DNA of 64,000 nt, taken from positions 1,798,001 through 1,862,000 of the forward strand of contig NZ_CP007035.1 of the NCBI RefSeq assembly GCF_000243115.2. The letters are read 5' to 3'. Within the stretch, counting starts at the first letter, position 1. Every line of letters begins with the position of its first letter. Under the pieces are notes generated by a model. The model was not told where the DNA came from and did no database searches. It saw nothing but the letters and a program-made list of their open reading frames with translations. Shown piece by piece: positions 2,077-56,607 of the stretch. Origin of the DNA: Niabella soli DSM 19437. GTDB lineage: Bacteria; Bacteroidota; Bacteroidia; Chitinophagales; Chitinophagaceae. A program made the position numbers and the translations under genes.

Positions 2077-3723
2077 TCAACTGTTAATAAGCACCTGCGC
2101 CCCTTTTATTACCACCCTGCCTCCGGATTGGATGGTAATACCCGTAGTATCCATCTTAATATGATTGTCGTACTCATCTTTTAATTCAAAGGAGCCGTTA
2201 TCATTCATTATTATTGATTTTTCACCTGAGTTGGTTGTTGCCACGATCGTTATTTTCTTGTCGCTGTCGTCAAAAATCAATTTCATCTTTTCTTTGGTAA
2301 TAATGCCGTACTGTTCTTTACCTGGGTCTGCCGGAAGCGGGGATTTTTTCTGATCATTACTATGCAGGCACCCCAGGAGGATCGCTTCGTTGGGGTCATC
2401 ATTCAGAAACCCCACTACTACTTCATCGCCCACCTGAGGTCTGAAATAGATGCCTCTGTCGGCTCCGGCATCCAATGTTGCCACGCGGGCCCATATCCCT
2501 TCGTCGCCGGAAGTAATGACCGGCACATGCACTTTAACCCGGTACTGGTAGTCACTGCTTTGGTCGTCCTCTATCTCTTTTACCAGGCCGATCTGCAACC
2601 CGTTGATGCCCGGCAAGAGGCCGGATGCCGGCTTATTCATTACATCTTCTTTTTTGTAAAACCAATCTTCGCGCCAGCCAAATTGAATATCGGTTTGCCA
2701 GGCGCCCTCATAATATTGCAATACTCCGGTTACAAAAACATCGCCGTTGAAGCGGTCACCTACGCCCGCCAGCGTTATAAGATCTCCTGGTTTTACGGAA
2801 GCCTGGCCCTGTACCCGCACCCGGCCGGCAATTTTCAGCAGATGATTGCGTAAGGCATAAGCATCGGACCAGGCCTGCAACGCTGTTTCAGGAAGATTTC
2901 CTGTATGGCTCAACTCAACCGCAGCGTCCAATACCATTCCAAGGTCATCCGAAGAAATATTCCCGTTTTCTGAAAAAGCGGCACTTCCCGGATCGGAGGT
3001 TATCACTTCCTGTTTGGCAAAATCCCATGAATGGCTGGTAACCTGCTGCAACTGTTTACGCACATCCATTTCTGCATCAAAATCCCAGATATTATCGCCG
3101 TAAGTGGCCTTTAACACCGGCATTCCGATTGTGGTGGGCTTCTTAACCACCAGCTTGCCATTGTCAGTAAACACAAACATACCGTTGGCTTCGGCTCTTG
3201 TGAGCATAAAATCCCAGTCGGTGGCATCAAACTGCACCAGTTGATCATAGGAAACGGTCGTCGCATCCACTTCATTTTCATAATCCGCCGCCAGGTCGCT
3301 AATGATATCGCTATCTGTTTTATTAAGGTGGTAAGCGCTCTTCCGCGCCATTGTTAATTTTACGGCTTTATCTTTTGCCTCGATCAGCAGTGCCGAGGAA
3401 GCATGCTGCCGCACCCGGACTCCCTGTTTTATTATAATGCCTTCAAAAACGGTATCTGCTTCTCCATGATATCCTAGTTGGATCTTAATTGTATTACCCG
3501 GCTTAAACTGATCATCATCGCTGAGCGAAAAATCCCGCTCCGATGCAGCACCGTCCAGGAAAACCATTTTTGCGGTGCTGATCTTATTGAATGTTTTTGT
3601 AACGGTTATCTGCGTCAGCAATACTTCATTGCTCAACGGTATGCCATTGATAAAAACCTTACGGGTCACCACATCAGTGGAAGGCTGCGTTCCGGGCGGT
3701 ATGGAAGCTAATACATCAGGCAT
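2077..3723 (-). CDS. VgrG-like spike protein of contractile injection system (Afp8/Pvc8-type)
   Basis: This 548-aa protein has a gp27-like N-terminal half, with a phage late control D-like fold and the motif DATDWDFMLTRAEANGMFV near residues 166-184. A gp5-like OB domain with RVKVHVPVITSGDEGIWARV and the hallmark RPQVGDEVVVGFLNDDPNEAILLG follows at about residues 400-460. A beta-helix C-terminus has repeating K/T/I strands and ends GRVVIKGAQVLINS. VgrG trimers form the membrane-puncturing spike. No effector domain is fused at the C-terminus. It starts 9 nt after the LysM protein and is followed by PAAR, as in other eCIS clusters. Confidence 0.93.
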   Translation of the reverse strand: MPDVLASIPPGTQPSTDVVTRKVFINGIPLSNEVLLTQITVTKTFNKISTAKMVFLDGAASERDFSLSDDDQFKPGNTIKIQLGYHGEADTVFEGIIIKQGVRVRQHASSALLIEAKDKAVKLTMARKSAYHLNKTDSDIISDLAADYENEVDATTVSYDQLVQFDATDWDFMLTRAEANGMFVFTDNGKLVVKKPTTIGMPVLKATYGDNIWDFDAEMDVRKQLQQVTSHSWDFAKQEVITSDPGSAAFSENGNISSDDLGMVLDAAVELSHTGNLPETALQAWSDAYALRNHLLKIAGRVRVQGQASVKPGDLITLAGVGDRFNGDVFVTGVLQYYEGAWQTDIQFGWREDWFYKKEDVMNKPASGLLPGINGLQIGLVKEIEDDQSSDYQYRVKVHVPVITSGDEGIWARVATLDAGADRGIYFRPQVGDEVVVGFLNDDPNEAILLGCLHSNDQKKSPLPADPGKEQYGIITKEKMKLIFDDSDKKITIVATTNSGEKSIIMNDNGSFELKDEYDNHIKMDTTGITIQSGGRVVIKGAQVLINS

Positions 3724-3732
3724 ATGCTGTTT

Positions 3733-4413
3733 TTAATGATCCGCAATCCTGGGGAACACCAGGGATGTTCCGGGTTGCAGTTTTCTGAAATTTTTTAACC
3801 GGTTCACTTTTGCCACCTGCAAATAATATTGTTGGTTCTGGTACACTTTATAGGTGAGTAAGGGCAGGATATCTCCCTTTTGCACTTCAACAATATGTGT
3901 CAGATCGGGAGAGGAAAGCATGCTCAGTAGCGCTCCCAGAGCGCCCGGGGTGCGTTCGTCAAAACTCGCCGTTACCTTGGCTCTTATAGGCAGACCCGTC
4001 ATGTCGAACATCGTATAGCTAACATCCGATGAACTGAGATTGCAGGAACTGACGAACGAACCATATTGTACAATAAGATAGGGTGGCCGGTGCAGGGTGC
4101 CAACTGTTTTAGTGGTAGCCTCCCTGAAAAGCAATACCTGTGCGGTTACCGGGATCTTGACCCCATTGGTGTTAACACCCGTTCCATCTAAAATAAATTC
4201 CAGTGTAAAGGAACGCGCCCGGGTGGCCTTATAAACGGGGTTGGCGCCTGCTGTACCGGGTACACTGCGGTTCTCCCAGTCGACATACTCCTTTACGGAA
4301 AACGACTCAGGATTAAACTGGGCAAGAAAAGGAACCCCTGCCGGTATTCCCTGTTCCGTTACCGGGATAATTTTCAGATTGAAGGGCAACTTGGCCGCGC
4401 TGGTAGCATCCAT
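3733..4413 (-). CDS. LysM-containing spike/tube adaptor (Afp7-like)
   Basis: This 226-aa protein has an N-terminal region with PVLAQFNPES-type features (PFLAQFNPESFSVKEYVDWENRS, residues about 26-48). It ends in a LysM-like segment (LTYKVYQNQQYYLQVAKVNRL, then LQPGTSLVFP). Proteins of this layout are the Afp7/gp53-like adaptors between tube and spike in eCIS. Its ATG overlaps the stop of the DUF5908 gene (TAATG), indicating translational coupling. The structural role comes from homologous positions, not from this sequence alone. Confidence 0.88.
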   Translation of the reverse strand: MDATSAAKLPFNLKIIPVTEQGIPAGVPFLAQFNPESFSVKEYVDWENRSVPGTAGANPVYKATRARSFTLEFILDGTGVNTNGVKIPVTAQVLLFREATTKTVGTLHRPPYLIVQYGSFVSSCNLSSSDVSYTMFDMTGLPIRAKVTASFDERTPGALGALLSMLSSPDLTHIVEVQKGDILPLLTYKVYQNQQYYLQVAKVNRLKNFRKLQPGTSLVFPRIADH

Positions 4414-4580
4414 TATCTTTCTTGTTTTTCTTTTAAAACGGTCATTATTTTTTCCATCAGTTCCCCGGGGATGTCGCCTTCCTGCTGCGGAGGGTGACCG
4501 GAGGCATCCGATACATTTCCCGGCCGGGGATTCGGATCCACAACCGCCCTGATAATAACTTCATTAATTTGTACCGGCAT
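4413..4580 (-). CDS. DUF5908 small eCIS protein
   Basis: A 55-aa reading frame begins MPVQINEVIIRAVV, the typical start of DUF5908 proteins, which occur between tube and LysM genes in Bacteroidota injection clusters. The middle is Pro/Gly-rich and the end is helical and basic (LMEKIMTVLKEKQER). Its stop overlaps the next start by 1 nt, and it begins 3 nt after the second tube gene's stop, so it is embedded in the operon. Function is unknown. Confidence 0.85.
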   Translation of the reverse strand: MPVQINEVIIRAVVDPNPRPGNVSDASGHPPQQEGDIPGELMEKIMTVLKEKQER

Positions 4581-4583
4581 TGC

Positions 4584-5057
4584 TTATAATTTTCTTTCAA
4601 AATACTGATAGCCTAATTCAATGGTTTCCACCATTACCGCATTATCAGCAGCTCTCAAATCCGACACCGACCATTTTAACGGGTAGGCCTGAAACACATT
4701 CCACACGGCTACGGGCTGATCACTTTCATCCAGAAGGGTAATTAAAATATCCGAGGGCTTAAAATCGAAAGAAGGGTCAACAGCCAGGAAATACGCGCTG
4801 GTGGCGGCTTTGAACCATTTAAGCAAAACGGTATTGGTAAGCATCCCTCTTTTTAATACCAGGTTAGGATATTTTGCACGCTTGGGAAGTTTATACTCAA
4901 ACCGGTTCTCCCCTCCTTCCCGGATCACTTCTGTTTCAATCTCAACCGACAACCCGCTTACTTCCTGGAAGCGCTGCTCTGCATCCGCGCTGCTTCCATC
5001 CACACCGGTAAATTCTACTTTAAAGTGAAAGGCAGCAGGCGGGTAATACGTAGGCAT
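4584..5057 (-). CDS. Tail tube protein 2 (gp19-like, Afp5-type)
   Basis: This 157-aa member of the T4 gp19-like tail tube family starts YPPAAFHFKVEF and has the shared core FQEVSGLSVEIETEVIREGGEN, then YPNLVLKRGM and a C-terminal TIELGYQYFERKL. eCIS particles use one abundant tube protein and one or two variants at the baseplate end. This longer paralogue, next to the adaptor, is the likelier baseplate-proximal one (inference). It starts 2 nt after the stop of tube 1. Confidence 0.93.
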   Translation of the reverse strand: MPTYYPPAAFHFKVEFTGVDGSSADAEQRFQEVSGLSVEIETEVIREGGENRFEYKLPKRAKYPNLVLKRGMLTNTVLLKWFKAATSAYFLAVDPSFDFKPSDILITLLDESDQPVAVWNVFQAYPLKWSVSDLRAADNAVMVETIELGYQYFERKL

Positions 5058-5059
5058 AC

Positions 5060-5494
5060 TTATGCGGTTTTTGTTGAGATCCCTTCATGAACCAATTCAA
5101 TAGATTCAATGGCGATGTCGTTCCCGCTCGCTTTCAGCCCCGGGCCTTCACATTTTACGGGAAATGCCTGCAACACGGACCAGATCATAACCGGCTCGCC
5201 TTCGTCGTTCAAAAGTGTAATGGTAATATCACGCCGTTCTACATTAGGCGCGCCATTATTATTAAACCAGTTGAACAAGTCGTTATTCTTTTCAACAATG
5301 CCTCTTTTCAAACTGATATTGGTAACCTTGCGCAATCCCGGGCGTTTCAATGACGGAGTGGATCCCGGCATTAGCCCGTCGCGGTATTCAATTGCCTGGA
5401 TCTCCTGCGTTAGTCCTGAAACATCTGAAAAACCGATGTCCTGATTATTCCATGAAACTTTGTAGTGAAAGACGGTTAAGGGATAGTTTGCCAT
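5060..5494 (-). CDS. Tail tube protein 1 (gp19-like, Afp1-type)
   Basis: This 144-aa gp19-family tube protein starts MANYPLTVFHYKVSW and has FSDVSGLTQEIQAIEYRDG, then VTNISLKRGIVEKNNDLFNWF and IAIESIELVHEGI. It aligns along its length with the next gene, so the pair arose by duplication. It lies 32 nt after the sheath gene and is probably the main inner tube protomer. Confidence 0.94.
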   Translation of the reverse strand: MANYPLTVFHYKVSWNNQDIGFSDVSGLTQEIQAIEYRDGLMPGSTPSLKRPGLRKVTNISLKRGIVEKNNDLFNWFNNNGAPNVERRDITITLLNDEGEPVMIWSVLQAFPVKCEGPGLKASGNDIAIESIELVHEGISTKTA

Positions 5495-5526
5495 TTTATT
5501 TGATTTAAGTTTTTCAATTTAATAGA

Positions 5527-6990
5527 TCAGGATTGCTGCACCATTTGAGTAAATTGTAATACAATGAACTCTGCAGGCCGCACAACCGCCATTCCGATCT
5601 CAACATTCATACGCCCTTCCAGCACATCAGTAGCGTTCATAGTGGAACCTAATCCTACGTGTACATAATAGGCCTGGTCGGGCTTGGCGCCTGCCAGTGC
5701 CCCCTCCCGCCATTTTGTGTACAAATAGTTTTCAATCATGGCGCTCACTTTCACCCAGGTACTGATGGCATTTGGCTCAAACACGGCCCACTGGATCGAC
5801 TTTTTGATAGATTCTTCCACCATGATAAAAAACCGGCGCACACTGATATACCGCCATTCATTGTCGTTTCCGTTTAGTGTTCTGGCGCCCCATACCAGGG
5901 TACCAAAACCAGGAAACGAGCGAATGACATTGACCGATTTCCCACTCACAGGATCTACGTTTAAATCTTCCTGTTGCCGGCTGGATAAATTAATAACGGG
6001 GCTCACTACCGACAGCACGGCTTCATTCGCCGGGGCCTTCCACACGCCTTTTGTAGTATCCACTCTTGTATATACGCCCGCTACCGCGCCGGAAGGAGGC
6101 AGCACCACCCATTCGTTATTTAGCGCGTCCTTTACTTTGTTGTAAAAAACAGAACCCGAAAACTTGCTCATCTTATCTCCCGCTGCAATTGTCAGCGAAG
6201 CGGTAGCCCCGGTGGCAAGACTATACGAATCGATCGTTAAATTATCAAAGTCATACCTATGTGCATAAGCGCTCACAACAGAGGGATAATAGGCCGCAGC
6301 ATAGCGATCAGATTCGGGACCCACCGTTGCATCCCTTATAAACTGGATATCGGTATCGAGGTCTCCATCGGTATACGTTTTGCTCAATGGGGTTACCTGG
6401 TAGGGGTCAATGATCGCAAAACGGTCCCGCAGGTCCGGGTCAGCCGCCTGGCTGATCATCGCCTGCACCACCTTTTTGTAATTGGCCGCCGATCCGGTTG
6501 CCGCCATTTCCGGAATAACCAGCAGTGTTATTTCGTCAACATCTTTTGCTTTTGTCAGCCCCGCGGTCAGATCATCTGAGCTGATGGTAACAGGTCCATC
6601 GGTAGTAGCGTAATTACCCGCCGCAACAATAAAACAGGTACCGCCCCCATTATCAAAAAAGCTTTGTAAGGAATAATACAACCTGAACGGGGAACGCTTG
6701 GTATCATCGTAATCAAACTTTATACTATACTGGCTGCCCCCTGCATCGGTAACGCCAATTTTAATACTATCGGCCGTTTCAGTGGGAGGTCCCCCGTATA
6801 ATGTAATAAATTCCGCCATGCCACTGATCTTTGTGGGCACCAGGAGCAGATCTCCGGAAGCAATTTTATCTGCCTTTTCTGTATAGCCCACAAACGCGGG
6901 TATCGCGGTTGCCACTTCAGCAACAGAAGGCGGAAGGGAAGGTATTTCCTGTACATAAACGCCAGGTGTGGAAAGTTTTACTACTGCCAT
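5527..6990 (-). CDS. Contractile tail sheath protein
   Basis: This 487-aa protein shows the phage tail sheath family start MAVVKLSTPGVYVQEIPSLPPSVAEVATAIPAFVGYTEKA. Its conserved C-terminal half has GVWKAPANEAV (about 310-320), YISVRRFFIMVEESIKKSIQWAVFEPN and a terminal strand MAVVRPAEFIVLQFTQMVQQS. The C-terminal strand is the part exchanged between neighbouring protomers to build the sheath. Length fits single-sheath eCIS of Bacteroidota. It is the mechanical core of the injector in this operon. Confidence 0.96.
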   Translation of the reverse strand: MAVVKLSTPGVYVQEIPSLPPSVAEVATAIPAFVGYTEKADKIASGDLLLVPTKISGMAEFITLYGGPPTETADSIKIGVTDAGGSQYSIKFDYDDTKRSPFRLYYSLQSFFDNGGGTCFIVAAGNYATTDGPVTISSDDLTAGLTKAKDVDEITLLVIPEMAATGSAANYKKVVQAMISQAADPDLRDRFAIIDPYQVTPLSKTYTDGDLDTDIQFIRDATVGPESDRYAAAYYPSVVSAYAHRYDFDNLTIDSYSLATGATASLTIAAGDKMSKFSGSVFYNKVKDALNNEWVVLPPSGAVAGVYTRVDTTKGVWKAPANEAVLSVVSPVINLSSRQQEDLNVDPVSGKSVNVIRSFPGFGTLVWGARTLNGNDNEWRYISVRRFFIMVEESIKKSIQWAVFEPNAISTWVKVSAMIENYLYTKWREGALAGAKPDQAYYVHVGLGSTMNATDVLEGRMNVEIGMAVVRPAEFIVLQFTQMVQQS

Positions 6991-7000
6991 TTTATATGTT

Positions 7001-8182
7001 TTAAAGTATCATAAATACATCAGAATAAATTTTTGGAGGAGCTGTAGCATCCAGGTTACCGGTGGAAGGAAAAGGTAAATTGTCTTTTACCACTTTTGCA
7101 GGTGTGGATACATCGTTTACATTCTTTTTTAAAGAAAGTTGCAAAGGCACATTGGAAGCACCTGTATATTTTTCCTGTAGCGCCAGTTTATTTACCGATT
7201 CAAACACCCACTCGGTATCGGATGCCGTCGTCATATTGAACGTTATCATTGATGTGTCATTACTGACAATATTTACCTTGCTTATAAAGTCCGAGCGTTG
7301 AGCGGAAGTCATTGCCGCCATTTCCAGGTATACCGGGCTTGTTTGCTGTAGCAGGATCGTATAGCGCCAGAAGGTCTCCCTGTTTTTAAAGCGAAGCTGA
7401 TAAAAAGGCCGGTCTGCAGTAAGGGAACGATCGGCTTCCACCGCGCGGTAATTGGTTGCCAGAGCGGAGTCCAGGGAAATTTCAACGATACCGAACACCC
7501 GCTGTCCGGCGGCAGCACCCAGGTAATAAAAGGTATCGACCGGGGTACCGCTTATCAGCAATGTATAGGTCCCCATTGGTGAACCACTCAGATCAAATAC
7601 CAGGTCGCACTGACCACCGGCATTTATTACCGCCGATGGCTGGATCACTTGCCCGGTACGGCTTTCCTTTACCACTGCCGCTCCTGCCGTAACCGTTGTA
7701 CTATGATGAAAACGATAATTGACATCCGATACTTTTATCGTATCATTTAACCCATCAACCCCTTCTGGCGCCTTTGAAAGATGAAGATCATCTCTTGGCG
7801 CAGCCGGGTCGCTCACATTATTCGTAAAATAAAGTGTGTTCTCCTGCTGCGTTTGCAGAGGCAGCTCATCAAAATTAGCCAGCTCCGGGTTGTTCAACAG
7901 CATCAGGAAGGTGAGCACCGTACCCGGTGTGGGCAGGAAACGTAAAAGCGCATCACCCGCAGCATTTGTTCCGGCAGCTCGCGCCAGCACTATTATTCCG
8001 CTATTTGCAGGATCATTCCTTACGAGAAGGTTTAGCCGGCGCAGCAGATCGACGGTATCCGGTGCCGTAAGCAGTTGTACATCCGGTTCCGTTCCGTTGC
8101 TCCGGTAAAACCCGTTGCGGTAAAACGGTTGTGCTATCGCCAATCGGAACAACTCTTTATATGTAATCTGAATGCGATTCAT
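7001..8182 (-). CDS. Uncharacterised eCIS-associated protein (393 aa)
   Basis: This 393-aa protein has no family I recognise. The first 110 residues are helical (MNRIQITYKELFRLAIAQPFYRNGFYRS, then FLPTPGTVLTFLMLLNNPELANFDELP). The rest is beta-rich and Thr/Val/Asn-rich, which suggests one or more immunoglobulin-like folds. There is no signal peptide or membrane segment. It starts 7 nt after the DUF4255 stop and ends 10 nt before the sheath start, so it is an integral member of the operon and could be a cap, terminator or surface decoration protein (inference). Confidence 0.75.
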   Translation of the reverse strand: MNRIQITYKELFRLAIAQPFYRNGFYRSNGTEPDVQLLTAPDTVDLLRRLNLLVRNDPANSGIIVLARAAGTNAAGDALLRFLPTPGTVLTFLMLLNNPELANFDELPLQTQQENTLYFTNNVSDPAAPRDDLHLSKAPEGVDGLNDTIKVSDVNYRFHHSTTVTAGAAVVKESRTGQVIQPSAVINAGGQCDLVFDLSGSPMGTYTLLISGTPVDTFYYLGAAAGQRVFGIVEISLDSALATNYRAVEADRSLTADRPFYQLRFKNRETFWRYTILLQQTSPVYLEMAAMTSAQRSDFISKVNIVSNDTSMITFNMTTASDTEWVFESVNKLALQEKYTGASNVPLQLSLKKNVNDVSTPAKVVKDNLPFPSTGNLDATAPPKIYSDVFMIL

Positions 8183-8189
8183 ATTTTAC

Positions 8190-8807
8190 TCATTTATCCA
8201 ACACCCCCAGTTCAACAATTGCCGGCGTTGCCTCCCTGCTCCTGGTATCTAATACAGTAAGCAGCGACATTTTATAAATAACACTGGGAACATACTTGCT
8301 GCCAAACATTCCCCATAAATTATTCTGCTGTTCAAATGAAAGATTGTGCAGCCGGAAGCTTAACCGTTCGATCAGTTGCCAGGGCTTTTCATCAGGCGAT
8401 AAAACGGTCGCATTCAGGTTCGGGAAATGTTGTTCATCAAAAACAGTATTTGCCTGAAAAAAGGCAGCTACATCCGAAAGATCGCGCAGTGCGGTACTGT
8501 AATCTGCACTATGCGCTATGAAAAGCAATAGCAGATTCAACTCAACAGGTGGGTTCAGTTTTAGCAATTTACGATCATTGGTGGCCACCATATACGGTCG
8601 CTTCCCTTCCCGCCGTTCTTCTTCCACACCAATAAGGGTTATGGTTATATGTTTCGTACTGTCGAAGCTGGTGTTGTTATTAAAAGGAGAAACCACGGAA
8701 CCCACCTCTACAATACTTCCGGGCGAATAGTTTGCAGGATCATTTTCCCTATCCGAGATGTAAGCGTCCAGTTCCCCTTTTATAAATTCAAATGCGGTCC
8801 GAATCAT
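8190..8807 (-). CDS. DUF4255 protein (Afp16/Pvc16-like tail terminator)
   Basis: This 205-aa protein from the ATG at 8807 starts MIRTAFEFIKGELDAYISDREN, typical of DUF4255. The longer frame to 8855 adds 16 residues unlike the family and is not used here. Central motifs are ITLIGVEEERREGKRPY and a helix-strand block with PVELNLLLLFIAHSADYSTALRDL. In AFP and PVC particles the DUF4255 protein caps the sheath and tube end. It is the first gene of the injection cluster as seen here. Confidence 0.9.
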   Translation of the reverse strand: MIRTAFEFIKGELDAYISDRENDPANYSPGSIVEVGSVVSPFNNNTSFDSTKHITITLIGVEEERREGKRPYMVATNDRKLLKLNPPVELNLLLLFIAHSADYSTALRDLSDVAAFFQANTVFDEQHFPNLNATVLSPDEKPWQLIERLSFRLHNLSFEQQNNLWGMFGSKYVPSVIYKMSLLTVLDTRSREATPAIVELGVLDK

Positions 8808-9277
8808 CTTGATCGAGTTAGTCGTAAAAAAATTTCGTTTATCTATGCGATGCATTGCAGAATCATAAGCACAACTGTTTTTGCCCGGTCAACGGGTTGA
8901 TGGAAATTTTCCATAACTCAAAATGTTCAATACGTCAGCAGATCGGGTTTGCGGTTATTTTTTATTCAATGCATCAAACTTTTTTTTGCAGAATGATTTA
9001 AAGGTATCTTTTTGCAAGCTCAAGATAAGTTCACAATGCAGGGTGTTCCAAATTATTCAACGCCCTTTTTCCAAAAGTAGCCTATATTGGTGATGGAGGG
9101 GTACAAGCCACGGGACCCGGAAGAGCGCAGTAAAAACAACGACACCGGCAGCAGGAAGTTAAGACATCAATAAGAAATGGAACGTCGGCTCCCCGGCGTA
9201 TTTTTATAAAAAAAACCGCTTACATATGTAAGCGGTTTACATTATATATTCAGCATTCTATATCCCTTGTTGCTATA
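8808..9277. other. Intergenic region upstream of the eCIS operon
   Basis: There is no convincing protein gene in these 470 nt. It must hold the eCIS operon promoter on the minus strand, but I find no clean TAnnTTTG element near 8807. The right end holds two back-to-back terminator-like hairpins (9182-9205 plus strand, 9213-9238 minus strand). Confidence 0.6.
9213..9238 (-). terminator. Intrinsic terminator of the PL8 lyase gene
   Basis: A perfect 26-nt palindrome (AAACCGCT, then TACATATGTA, then AGCGGTTT) is followed on the minus strand by a run of eight T. It lies 39 nt after the lyase stop. Confidence 0.85.
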
Positions 9278-53614: not shown

Positions 53615-53920
53615 TTAGGCTTTGATCTCCACTTCCACACCGCTGGGCAAATCCAGCTTAGACAAAGCGTCTACTGTGCGGGAAGAAGAAGTATAGATAT
53701 CCAATAATCTTTTGTGTGTAGCCAGTTGAAACTGCTCGCGGCTCTTTTTGTTTACGTGCGGAGAACGCAAAACGGTAAAAATTTTACGATGCGTGGGCAA
53801 AGGAATAGGCCCTGTAACAACTGCACCAGTGCTGCGCACTGTTTTTACGATTTTTTCTGCTGATTTATCAACCAGGTTGTGATCGTAAGACTGTAATTTA
53901 ATTCTGATTCTCTGTGACAT
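53615..53920 (-). CDS. rpsJ: 30S ribosomal protein S10
   Basis: This 101-aa protein has [75 protein letters not shown], the complete S10 pattern (also NusE). It is first in the cluster with its own promoter. fusA, rpsG and rpsL do not precede it. Confidence 0.98.
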
Positions 53921-53956: not shown

Positions 53957-54117
53957 CAGTCTCCTTTTGAAATAAACTAATTTTTATCCATTAATTTTAA
54001 AACATTGCACTTTATGTAACGCAGGAACCGCTTTGCAGATATCAATTTTTATCAATAAATTAGATGCGACGACCCTTGCAGTAAAAAAATAACCAATCAG
54101 TGGGCAACAACTGCTTT

Positions 54118-55835
54118 ATGAAAAAAGACATCCTTTTATTATTAATTATTTGTTTTTCAATTAATTGCGAAGCTCAAAATTTAATTCCGGCAAAACGCAA
54201 TACTATAGTTTACACCAGTATAGATTCCGCCGTCAAATACAAGGACTCGGTTCTCTATCTTGAATTAAAACATGATGCCATCCTCAAAACAGATCTGAGC
54301 CTTATAGCACAACTGCCCAACCTGACCCAACTTTCGCTTTATGGCGGAGGGCTCACGCAGATACCCGAAAGCATTTACAAACTCGGCAACCTGCGCCAGC
54401 TTACCATCAGTTATAACAAAATAAGCAGTATCCCGAAAAGCATATTAAAGCTGAAAAAGCTGGAATATCTGGCGTTAAATAATACCAGGGTAACAGAAAT
54501 CCCCGGCTGGATAAAAAACATGTCGTCTCTAAAATCACTTGTTCTTGAACGCAATAATATTACCACCCTTAAAAACAGCCCCGGGCTTAATAGAACACTT
54601 AACTATTTGAGTATCAGCAATAATCAGCTAAAAGAACTACCTGCTTCGTTTAAAGCCTTCTCTAATTTAAAGAAGATATCTCCCATAATAAGTTTACCCA
54701 TTTACCCGGCATTCTGTTATCGCTAACATCGCTTGAAGCACTAGATGTATCCGGTAATAATCTGCAAATGCTTCCCAGGGAAATTGCTGCCTTACAGGAA
54801 CTGAAACAACTTAAATTGGATAGCAATCCCTTTACACAACTGCCTCCATTAGACAGTTTAAAAGCATTGGAAATGCTTTCTATAAGTAATGATACGGTAC
54901 TGTCTGAAATACCGTCATTGCCCCCATCACTTAAACATTTGTATGCCTATAACGCCAATAATCTCAGGAGCATTCCTAAAGCGCTCCGGAACTGCGAACA
55001 GTTGAAAACATTGATTGTCACCAATGCACACATTGACTTTGCGCCGTCCTGGATATTTGAGTTAAAAAAATTGAATTGGCTGACACTCGATGGAAATCGC
55101 ATCACTAGTATTCCCCCGGTTATAAATATACCGGAATTAGAGTATCTGAATTTAGATAATAATAAAATAGATTCAATCCCCTTTTCCCTTTTTACACTCC
55201 CTAAATTAAAGACCCTGTCTATAAACAATAACCCGGTAAAACATATCCCAAAAGCGATTTTACAAGCAGGGGCGCTAAAATATTTTAATATTGAAAAAAC
55301 ACGGATAGCCAGTGAAGAATACACCGGGATCAGGATAGAAACGGCAAACAAGTCCATTATAATAACTGCGGACGATAAACTAAAATTATTAGCCTACGAC
55401 AGAAACAGGCCCTGCTATTCAGACGATGACAGCCTTTTGTTCAATTACGAAATATTTACAAAAACGGAAGTGCCCCCAAGATTTAACGAAAACACAAATG
55501 ATAAAATTGATTTTTTTAACCGATCACTCCTTTTCCCGTACATTGATTCAACAGGATACAAAGACCAACCGTTCTCAGATACGGTAATTGTAAAGTTTGT
55601 TGTGCTACCCTACGGCGGCATCACCAAAGTAACTACTTTGGTTGCCAAACTGAAGCAAACCAAACAGGAGGCGCTGCGATTGTTAAAGCTCTCCTGCACC
55701 GGCTGGAAACCGGCTGTTACAGGCAGCAGAAGCGTGAAAGCATGGTGTTATACACGGTTTATATTTACCCAATTTTACAGTGGTGGTATTATTCAAAAGA
55801 AATTATCCGTGCAGGTTATTCCGCAGTACCCATAG
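54118..55835 (+). pseudogene. Frameshifted LRR protein with C-terminal TonB-like domain
   Basis: Reading one starts MKKDILLLLIICFSINCEAQN (signal peptide) and carries leucine-rich repeats (LRQLTISYNKISSIPKSILKLKKL). Near 54682 the LRR pattern shifts to another frame, reading HNKFTHLPGILLSLTSLEAL up to and beyond 54768, and continues to 55835. The C-terminal 100 residues (VIVKFVVLPYGG, then GWKPAVTGSRSVKAW) match a TonB C-terminal fold. A 4-nt deletion of ATAT between two ATATC copies would restore the 11-residue LRR core exactly (inference). It could still be a sequencing error. Confidence 0.8.
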
Positions 55836-55842
55836 GAGGTAT

Positions 55843-56607
55843 TTATTGGTGCACGAATTCCGTCAGCTCCGCGATCTTATCAGTATTAATATACCCAACC
55901 CCTAATGCTTCAAAGGTTTTCCAGGCATTGGGCGTGTCCGGAGCCCCCCAGAAACGGACTGTTTTGCCGGCCCGGCGCGCTTTGGCGATCTCCCGCTCCA
56001 ACACCAGTTTGGAAGCCGCATCTAAAGTACCGGTACCATCCCATTTGGAATAGTCCCTGAAATTAGCACTGAAAAGCGCAACCCTGGCAAGATTCTTCTT
56101 GGTATAGTTATAGGTAAGATCCCCATCAAACCAGATAAAAGAGGGATACGTAAACAAAGAGTCCTTGGAGGGCTGATTACCGGTTATTACGATCCGCACC
56201 CGCTTATTATTAATGATATCCGGGTACGCTTTCAGCTCCCTGATAATTTCAGCTACGGTGGCAACGCCGTCAATTTTGCAATCGATCAGGAGCACCAACT
56301 GTCTTTTGGGGTCGGGATATACGGCTCCTTTATTCTTAAGGATCATTGATTTCAAAGGATCCAGGTAAAGACTCCTCAGCGTCCGGTCTGGCCGGATCTC
56401 TTTTTCGTTATGCGCCACCAACAGCTCGTTGGGTCGCAAAAACACATCCGCTTCTATTGAACCGAACCGATGTTCATAAGCCAGCCAGAAAGGCCTTTTC
56501 TGTTCATAGTCATTGTGGGAATGTGCATTTTGAACGGTGTAGATCTTTGGTTGCGCAAAAGCATTAGCAGCAATACAAAGACAAAAAGCAAGCAACAGTT
56601 TTCTCAT
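55843..56607 (-). CDS. PI-PLC-like/glycerophosphodiesterase-like secreted phosphodiesterase
   Basis: This 254-aa protein has a signal peptide (1-18). Motifs HSHNDYEQKRPFWLAYEHRFGSIEADVFL and LLVAHNEKE carry His, Glu and Asp positions typical of TIM-barrel phosphodiesterases with a metal site. The C-terminus has RFWGAPDTPNAWKTFEALGVGYINTD, typical of the AIM6/GDPD-like group. It probably hydrolyses phosphodiesters of lipids or glycerol outside the cytoplasm; the substrate is unknown. Confidence 0.85.
   Translation of the reverse strand: MRKLLLAFCLCIAANAFAQPKIYTVQNAHSHNDYEQKRPFWLAYEHRFGSIEADVFLRPNELLVAHNEKEIRPDRTLRSLYLDPLKSMILKNKGAVYPDPKRQLVLLIDCKIDGVATVAEIIRELKAYPDIINNKRVRIVITGNQPSKDSLFTYPSFIWFDGDLTYNYTKKNLARVALFSANFRDYSKWDGTGTLDAASKLVLEREIAKARRAGKTVRFWGAPDTPNAWKTFEALGVGYINTDKIAELTEFVHQ

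Follow-up and report, generated by a model that had tools for sequence, protein, structure and literature searches.

Positions 54,118 to 55,835 of the stretch analysed here (the window: 64,000 nucleotides of contig NZ_CP007035.1, forward strand, from Niabella soli DSM 19437) carry two overlapping reading frames on the + strand, both coding for leucine-rich repeats (LRRs). The question raised by this locus is whether the frames are two genes, one working gene read through a frame change, one whole gene with an error in its sequence, or one gene that has been broken. The features of the locus and its two neighbours, in window coordinates, are as follows:

53615..53920, - strand: divergent neighbour, rpsJ, which we take from its sequence to encode ribosomal protein S10; also the neighbour in N. 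ginsengisoli
54118..54726, + strand: N-terminal frame, 202 amino acids; signal-peptide-like start, then LRRs; homology over about 186 residues, then out of frame
54666..54723, + strand: stretch open in both frames; homology switches frame at about 54678, and a TTTAAAG heptamer of the N-terminal frame starts at 54666
54681..55280, + strand: C-terminal frame, rest of the LRRs
55281..55835, + strand: C-terminal frame; last of the LRRs, then a linker and a TonB C-terminal-like domain at about residues 56-165 of 184
55843..56607, - strand: convergent neighbour, presumably phosphodiesterase-like; 7 other congener loci have a homologue near rpsJ

Two reading frames and their homologues

The downstream frame is open from 54666 to 55835 and overlaps the upstream frame (54118-54726), with LRR homology in both; it has an ATG of its own at 54768. 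The Pfam family LRR_4 was matched far over the cut-off in each half (8.8e-17 in the N half, 2.7e-21 in the C half), LRR_8 and LRR_14 likewise pass their cut-offs in each half, and the sequence shows tandem LxxLxLxxN repeats. Read by eye, the N-terminal frame opens with a hydrophobic, export-signal-like stretch, and the downstream piece begins with LRRs, without an export signal.

Homologues were searched in 17 Niabella genomes, 16 of them besides N. soli. Intact full-length homologues were found in 4 of the 16 congeners (Niabella ginsengisoli, N. pedocola, N. aurantiaca and one Niabella metagenome-assembled genome, MAG), each as a single frame of 578-591 amino acids from stop to stop with no internal stop. 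A contig scan with the C half alone as query returned no relative, a contig scan with an alignment of the intact homologues as query returned four, and a plasmid search with the gene gave no match.

The N. ginsengisoli homologue stands at the matching place, head to head with rpsJ, and the copies of N. pedocola, N. aurantiaca and the Niabella MAG sit elsewhere, away from rpsJ. rpsJ was matched in 14 congeners, and of these (flanks of about 1.5 kb inspected on each side) N. ginsengisoli is the only one with an LRR-TonB_C gene beside it. The rpsJ flank is occupied instead by what we take to be a phosphodiesterase-like gene in seven loci and an alkaline-phosphatase-like gene in three. The LRR-TonB_C gene is an accessory gene in the genus Niabella.

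Three further observations concern these surroundings. The N. ginsengisoli LRR gene adjoins a frame (L032 6522-7748) that we assume to be alkaline-phosphatase-like and that has homologues near rpsJ in three other congeners. In one congener genome (83% complete) the rpsJ match comes in two overlapping pieces at G012:C1:3028106-3028407, perhaps through a sequencing error there. Elsewhere in the window, positions 2077-8888 on the - strand hold a contractile injection system cluster with two gp19-like tube proteins and the sheath, CIS_tube, baseplate/hub and Pvc16_N families; the two gp19 matches, met among the window ORFs scanned for split families, are each a full-length copy and not a split gene.

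Repeat spacing at the break

In the N-terminal frame a conserved LRR residue recurs at 54346, 54415, 54484, 54553 and 54622, giving four intervals of 69 nt. The next such residue is at 54687 in the other frame, 65 nt on by arithmetic from a repeat read by hand, and in the N. ginsengisoli homologue the aligned interval across the break spans 23 residues (69 nt). The spacing was taken from the N-half intervals and this first C-frame repeat, which the repeat pattern had missed; matches of the pattern to non-repeat positions in the C half, with irregular spacings, were set aside. The alignment with the N. ginsengisoli DNA has too many gaps around the break to place the deletion and was not used for that purpose. 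Four intervals of 69 nt followed by one of 65 nt, where the N. ginsengisoli homologue keeps 69 nt, are most simply read as a net loss of four bases inside one LRR repeat.

A first-pass annotation of this DNA had described one LRR-TonB_C gene, broken by a 4-nt loss, with the LRR pattern running across the frame change. The crossing is borne out by the two overlapping LRR frames together with the full-length single-frame homologues, the repeat spacing and the homologues found whole in 4 of the 16 congeners agree with a single gene that is now broken, and the change from 69 to 65 nt with the 23-residue interval in N. ginsengisoli supports the size of the loss. The comparison with relatives that it had proposed was run; all 4 full-length homologues are intact, and a division into two genes in all relatives was not seen.

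Its account of how the bases were lost fared less well. It had invoked slippage between two ATATC copies, with possible switching by length change, but the + strand has a single copy at 54676-54680, and the reverse-complement match overlaps this copy as a palindrome. With neither a repeat tract nor a second ATATC at the site, the slippage mechanism is left without support, as is switching by length change. No tandem repeat with a score of at least 30 was found in 54000-55900, and none was seen by eye near the site in the N. ginsengisoli DNA. ATATC as such is frequent in the window (179 occurrences on both strands against 122 expected, a count reached by 0 of 100 shuffles), and many of its pairs overlap as GATATC palindromes.

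The C-terminal domain

The Pfam family TonB_C (PF03544) scored 14.8 bits against the C half and 16.3 bits against the C part alone, short of the cut-off of 24.6; three of the four homologues were likewise under the cut-off, and the syntenic N. ginsengisoli protein was not listed. A profile built from five C-terminal parts (A5) was then searched against 294 genomes of the family with E ≤ 1e-8 and matched proteins in 238 of them. Its best match outside LRR proteins was TonB-like (E 3.3e-23), and the TonB_C cut-off was passed by 4 of the 4 A5 relatives scanned (the best match and three others).

The predicted structure of the C part had a mean pLDDT of 63, with block means of 76-84 over residues 101-180. 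Foldseek with this model returned nothing at E ≤ 0.001, with kinesins mixed into the top rows. When the Foldseek candidates were aligned by VIA-align, ranks 1-10 were TonB-type (Z 5.8-7.1, rmsd 2.2-3.1, 77-90 aligned residues), Z values that are middling by themselves. Because the profile link to TonB-like proteins and the VIA-align result stand together, we accept the C-terminal part as a TonB C-terminal domain by homology and predicted fold; the first-pass annotation had named this fold, and it is upheld on these grounds although Pfam alone stays under its cut-off. In the predicted structure of the intact N. ginsengisoli protein, a helix at the N terminus and an LRR solenoid with block pLDDT values of about 70-95 are followed by a C part of low prediction quality.

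Condition of the two halves

Identity to the N. ginsengisoli protein is about equal in the N half (83/186) and the C half (177/381). Against the three distant homologues, the C half of N. soli shares 38.4-39.5% and that of the intact N. ginsengisoli protein 38.1-39.9%; for the N half the values are 29.9-33.2% in N. soli and 35.3-38.0% in N. ginsengisoli. The 368 codons past the stop of the N-terminal frame are free of stops, which puts neutral divergence since the break at no more than about 0.06 per site (indels ignored), and third-position GC is 0.43 and 0.41 in the two halves. With the C half undecayed by identity, stop count and third-position GC, a recent break, continued use of the frame and an error in the sequence at this point each fit, and on these data alone they cannot be told apart.

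Origin of the break

We consider the locus to be probably a pseudogene, recently inactivated but not decayed in other respects, that once encoded an accessory LRR-TonB_C protein of Niabella; it looks like ordinary gene decay and not a switch. The ancestral gene would have encoded a single exported protein, about 560-580 residues long, in which a signal for export was followed by a solenoid of LRRs, 23 residues each, and by a TonB C-terminal-like domain in the periplasm. In N. soli a small deletion, of net four bases by the spacing, would shift the frame within one repeat; translation would therefore stop about 15 residues on, yielding a shortened LRR fragment that lacks the TonB_C domain and leaving the downstream part without an export signal of its own. 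We infer that the mutation is real and recent, and infer likewise the role of the protein. Two findings count against a pseudogene: the undecayed C half would also fit a sequencing error or a used frame, and the N half is somewhat farther from the distant homologues than that of N. ginsengisoli, a difference not expected from a break that silences what lies downstream of it.

An error of assembly or base calling, with the gene whole in the organism, would account for a downstream frame that has not decayed. Errors in 454 data are expected at homopolymers or tandem repeats, and the site is neither; moreover, one family split over two frames was seen in 0 of 10 other window ORFs scanned. The genome is a single contig of 4,697,343 bases, the length also published for the Niabella soli JS13-8T chromosome, which was finished from 113x Illumina and 23.6x 454 coverage (136.6x in total), with 34 pseudogenes reported (PMC3569382). 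The presence of 454 reads among the data favours an error, and the correction by Illumina and a stated error rate of less than 1 in 100,000 speak against one (PMC3569382). An assembly error at the break is unlikely because of this published coverage. Division into two separate genes, each working alone, could draw on the ATG of the downstream frame at 54768, but is hardly credible given that the family is a single frame in 4 of 4 full-length homologues, that the break falls inside one repeat, and that the downstream piece opens with LRRs and lacks an export signal. A phase-variable switch through changes of repeat length has in its favour the suggestion made in the first-pass annotation alone, and with a single ATATC, no tandem repeat scoring at least 30 and none visible near the site in N. 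ginsengisoli, its probability is close to negligible.

That the two halves still form a functional gene, translated through a -1 ribosomal frameshift at TTTAAAG in the overlap, would fit in direction and in the undecayed downstream frame, and the heptamer is of the in-frame X XXY YYZ form and lies at 54666, exactly where the second frame opens. In E. coli, Lys-tRNA decoding AAG has been described as prone to slip (PMC4066793). Such a heptamer, however, occurs in 1249 of 9599 19-codon stretches (13%; 23 coding stretches of the window), and the folds predicted for three stretches around and after the site do not stand out against shuffled sequence (z 1.08, -0.33 and -0.45). The joined product would lack one residue of a conserved LRR segment and would place an acidic residue at a position otherwise filled by Leu or Ile; the frame change is absent from the homologues and the site is not conserved. 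We therefore regard frameshifting in a working gene as very unlikely. That a chance deletion has been kept as a two-product gene, giving a short secreted LRR protein and the full LRR-TonB_C protein, is highly improbable; it would come about because ribosomes slip back at the overlap heptamer and make both proteins. Were the frame read through, the locus would exemplify recoding that has recently rescued a deletion.

With the recent pseudogene as the preferred reading, the locus is mainly a matter of annotation, two adjoining open frames being a single broken gene. For the intact protein the most likely role, at about even odds, is binding in the periplasm or envelope, with the LRRs recognising a ligand or protein and the TonB_C domain making a second contact. 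A binding protein is preferred to an energy transducer because a transmembrane anchor with a proline-rich spacer is not seen: by reading of the sequence, the membrane anchor and proline-rich periplasmic spacer of energy-transducing TonB are absent, and a short signal-like start is followed by LRRs. The intact LRR-TonB_C family could merit testing as an envelope binding protein.

Comparison with known proteins

Fusions of TonB_C in long frames were picked from the matches listed (17), and 10 were scanned, of which 8 carried an M56 peptidase, 2 MORN repeats and 0 LRRs. Judging by this sample of the matches listed, other modules that end in TonB_C are common in the family, and LRR-TonB_C was met only in Niabella among those matches. 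In the open-access literature we found no paper on an architecture of LRRs with a TonB C-terminal domain in Bacteroidetes, and nothing on the TonB C-terminal domain with BlaR1 in that group.

The four Niabella homologues resemble the N. soli locus in having an export signal, 23-residue LRRs, a linker with a PCY motif and TonB_C in the same order, and share 38-47% identity with N. soli over the C half; they differ in that their frame is uninterrupted, and those of N. pedocola, N. aurantiaca and the MAG have one additional repeat in the alignment. The N. soli C part is like the TonB C-terminal domain of PF03544 by the profile link and predicted fold. The TonB-like proteins compared have a transmembrane helix and a proline-rich spacer, whereas the N. 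soli LRR protein is without these. The M56 (BlaR1-type) and MORN proteins of Chitinophagaceae are like LRR-TonB_C in that TonB_C ends an unrelated N-terminal module, and unlike it in the partner: there TonB_C is joined to a membrane peptidase or to MORN repeats, in Niabella to LRRs.
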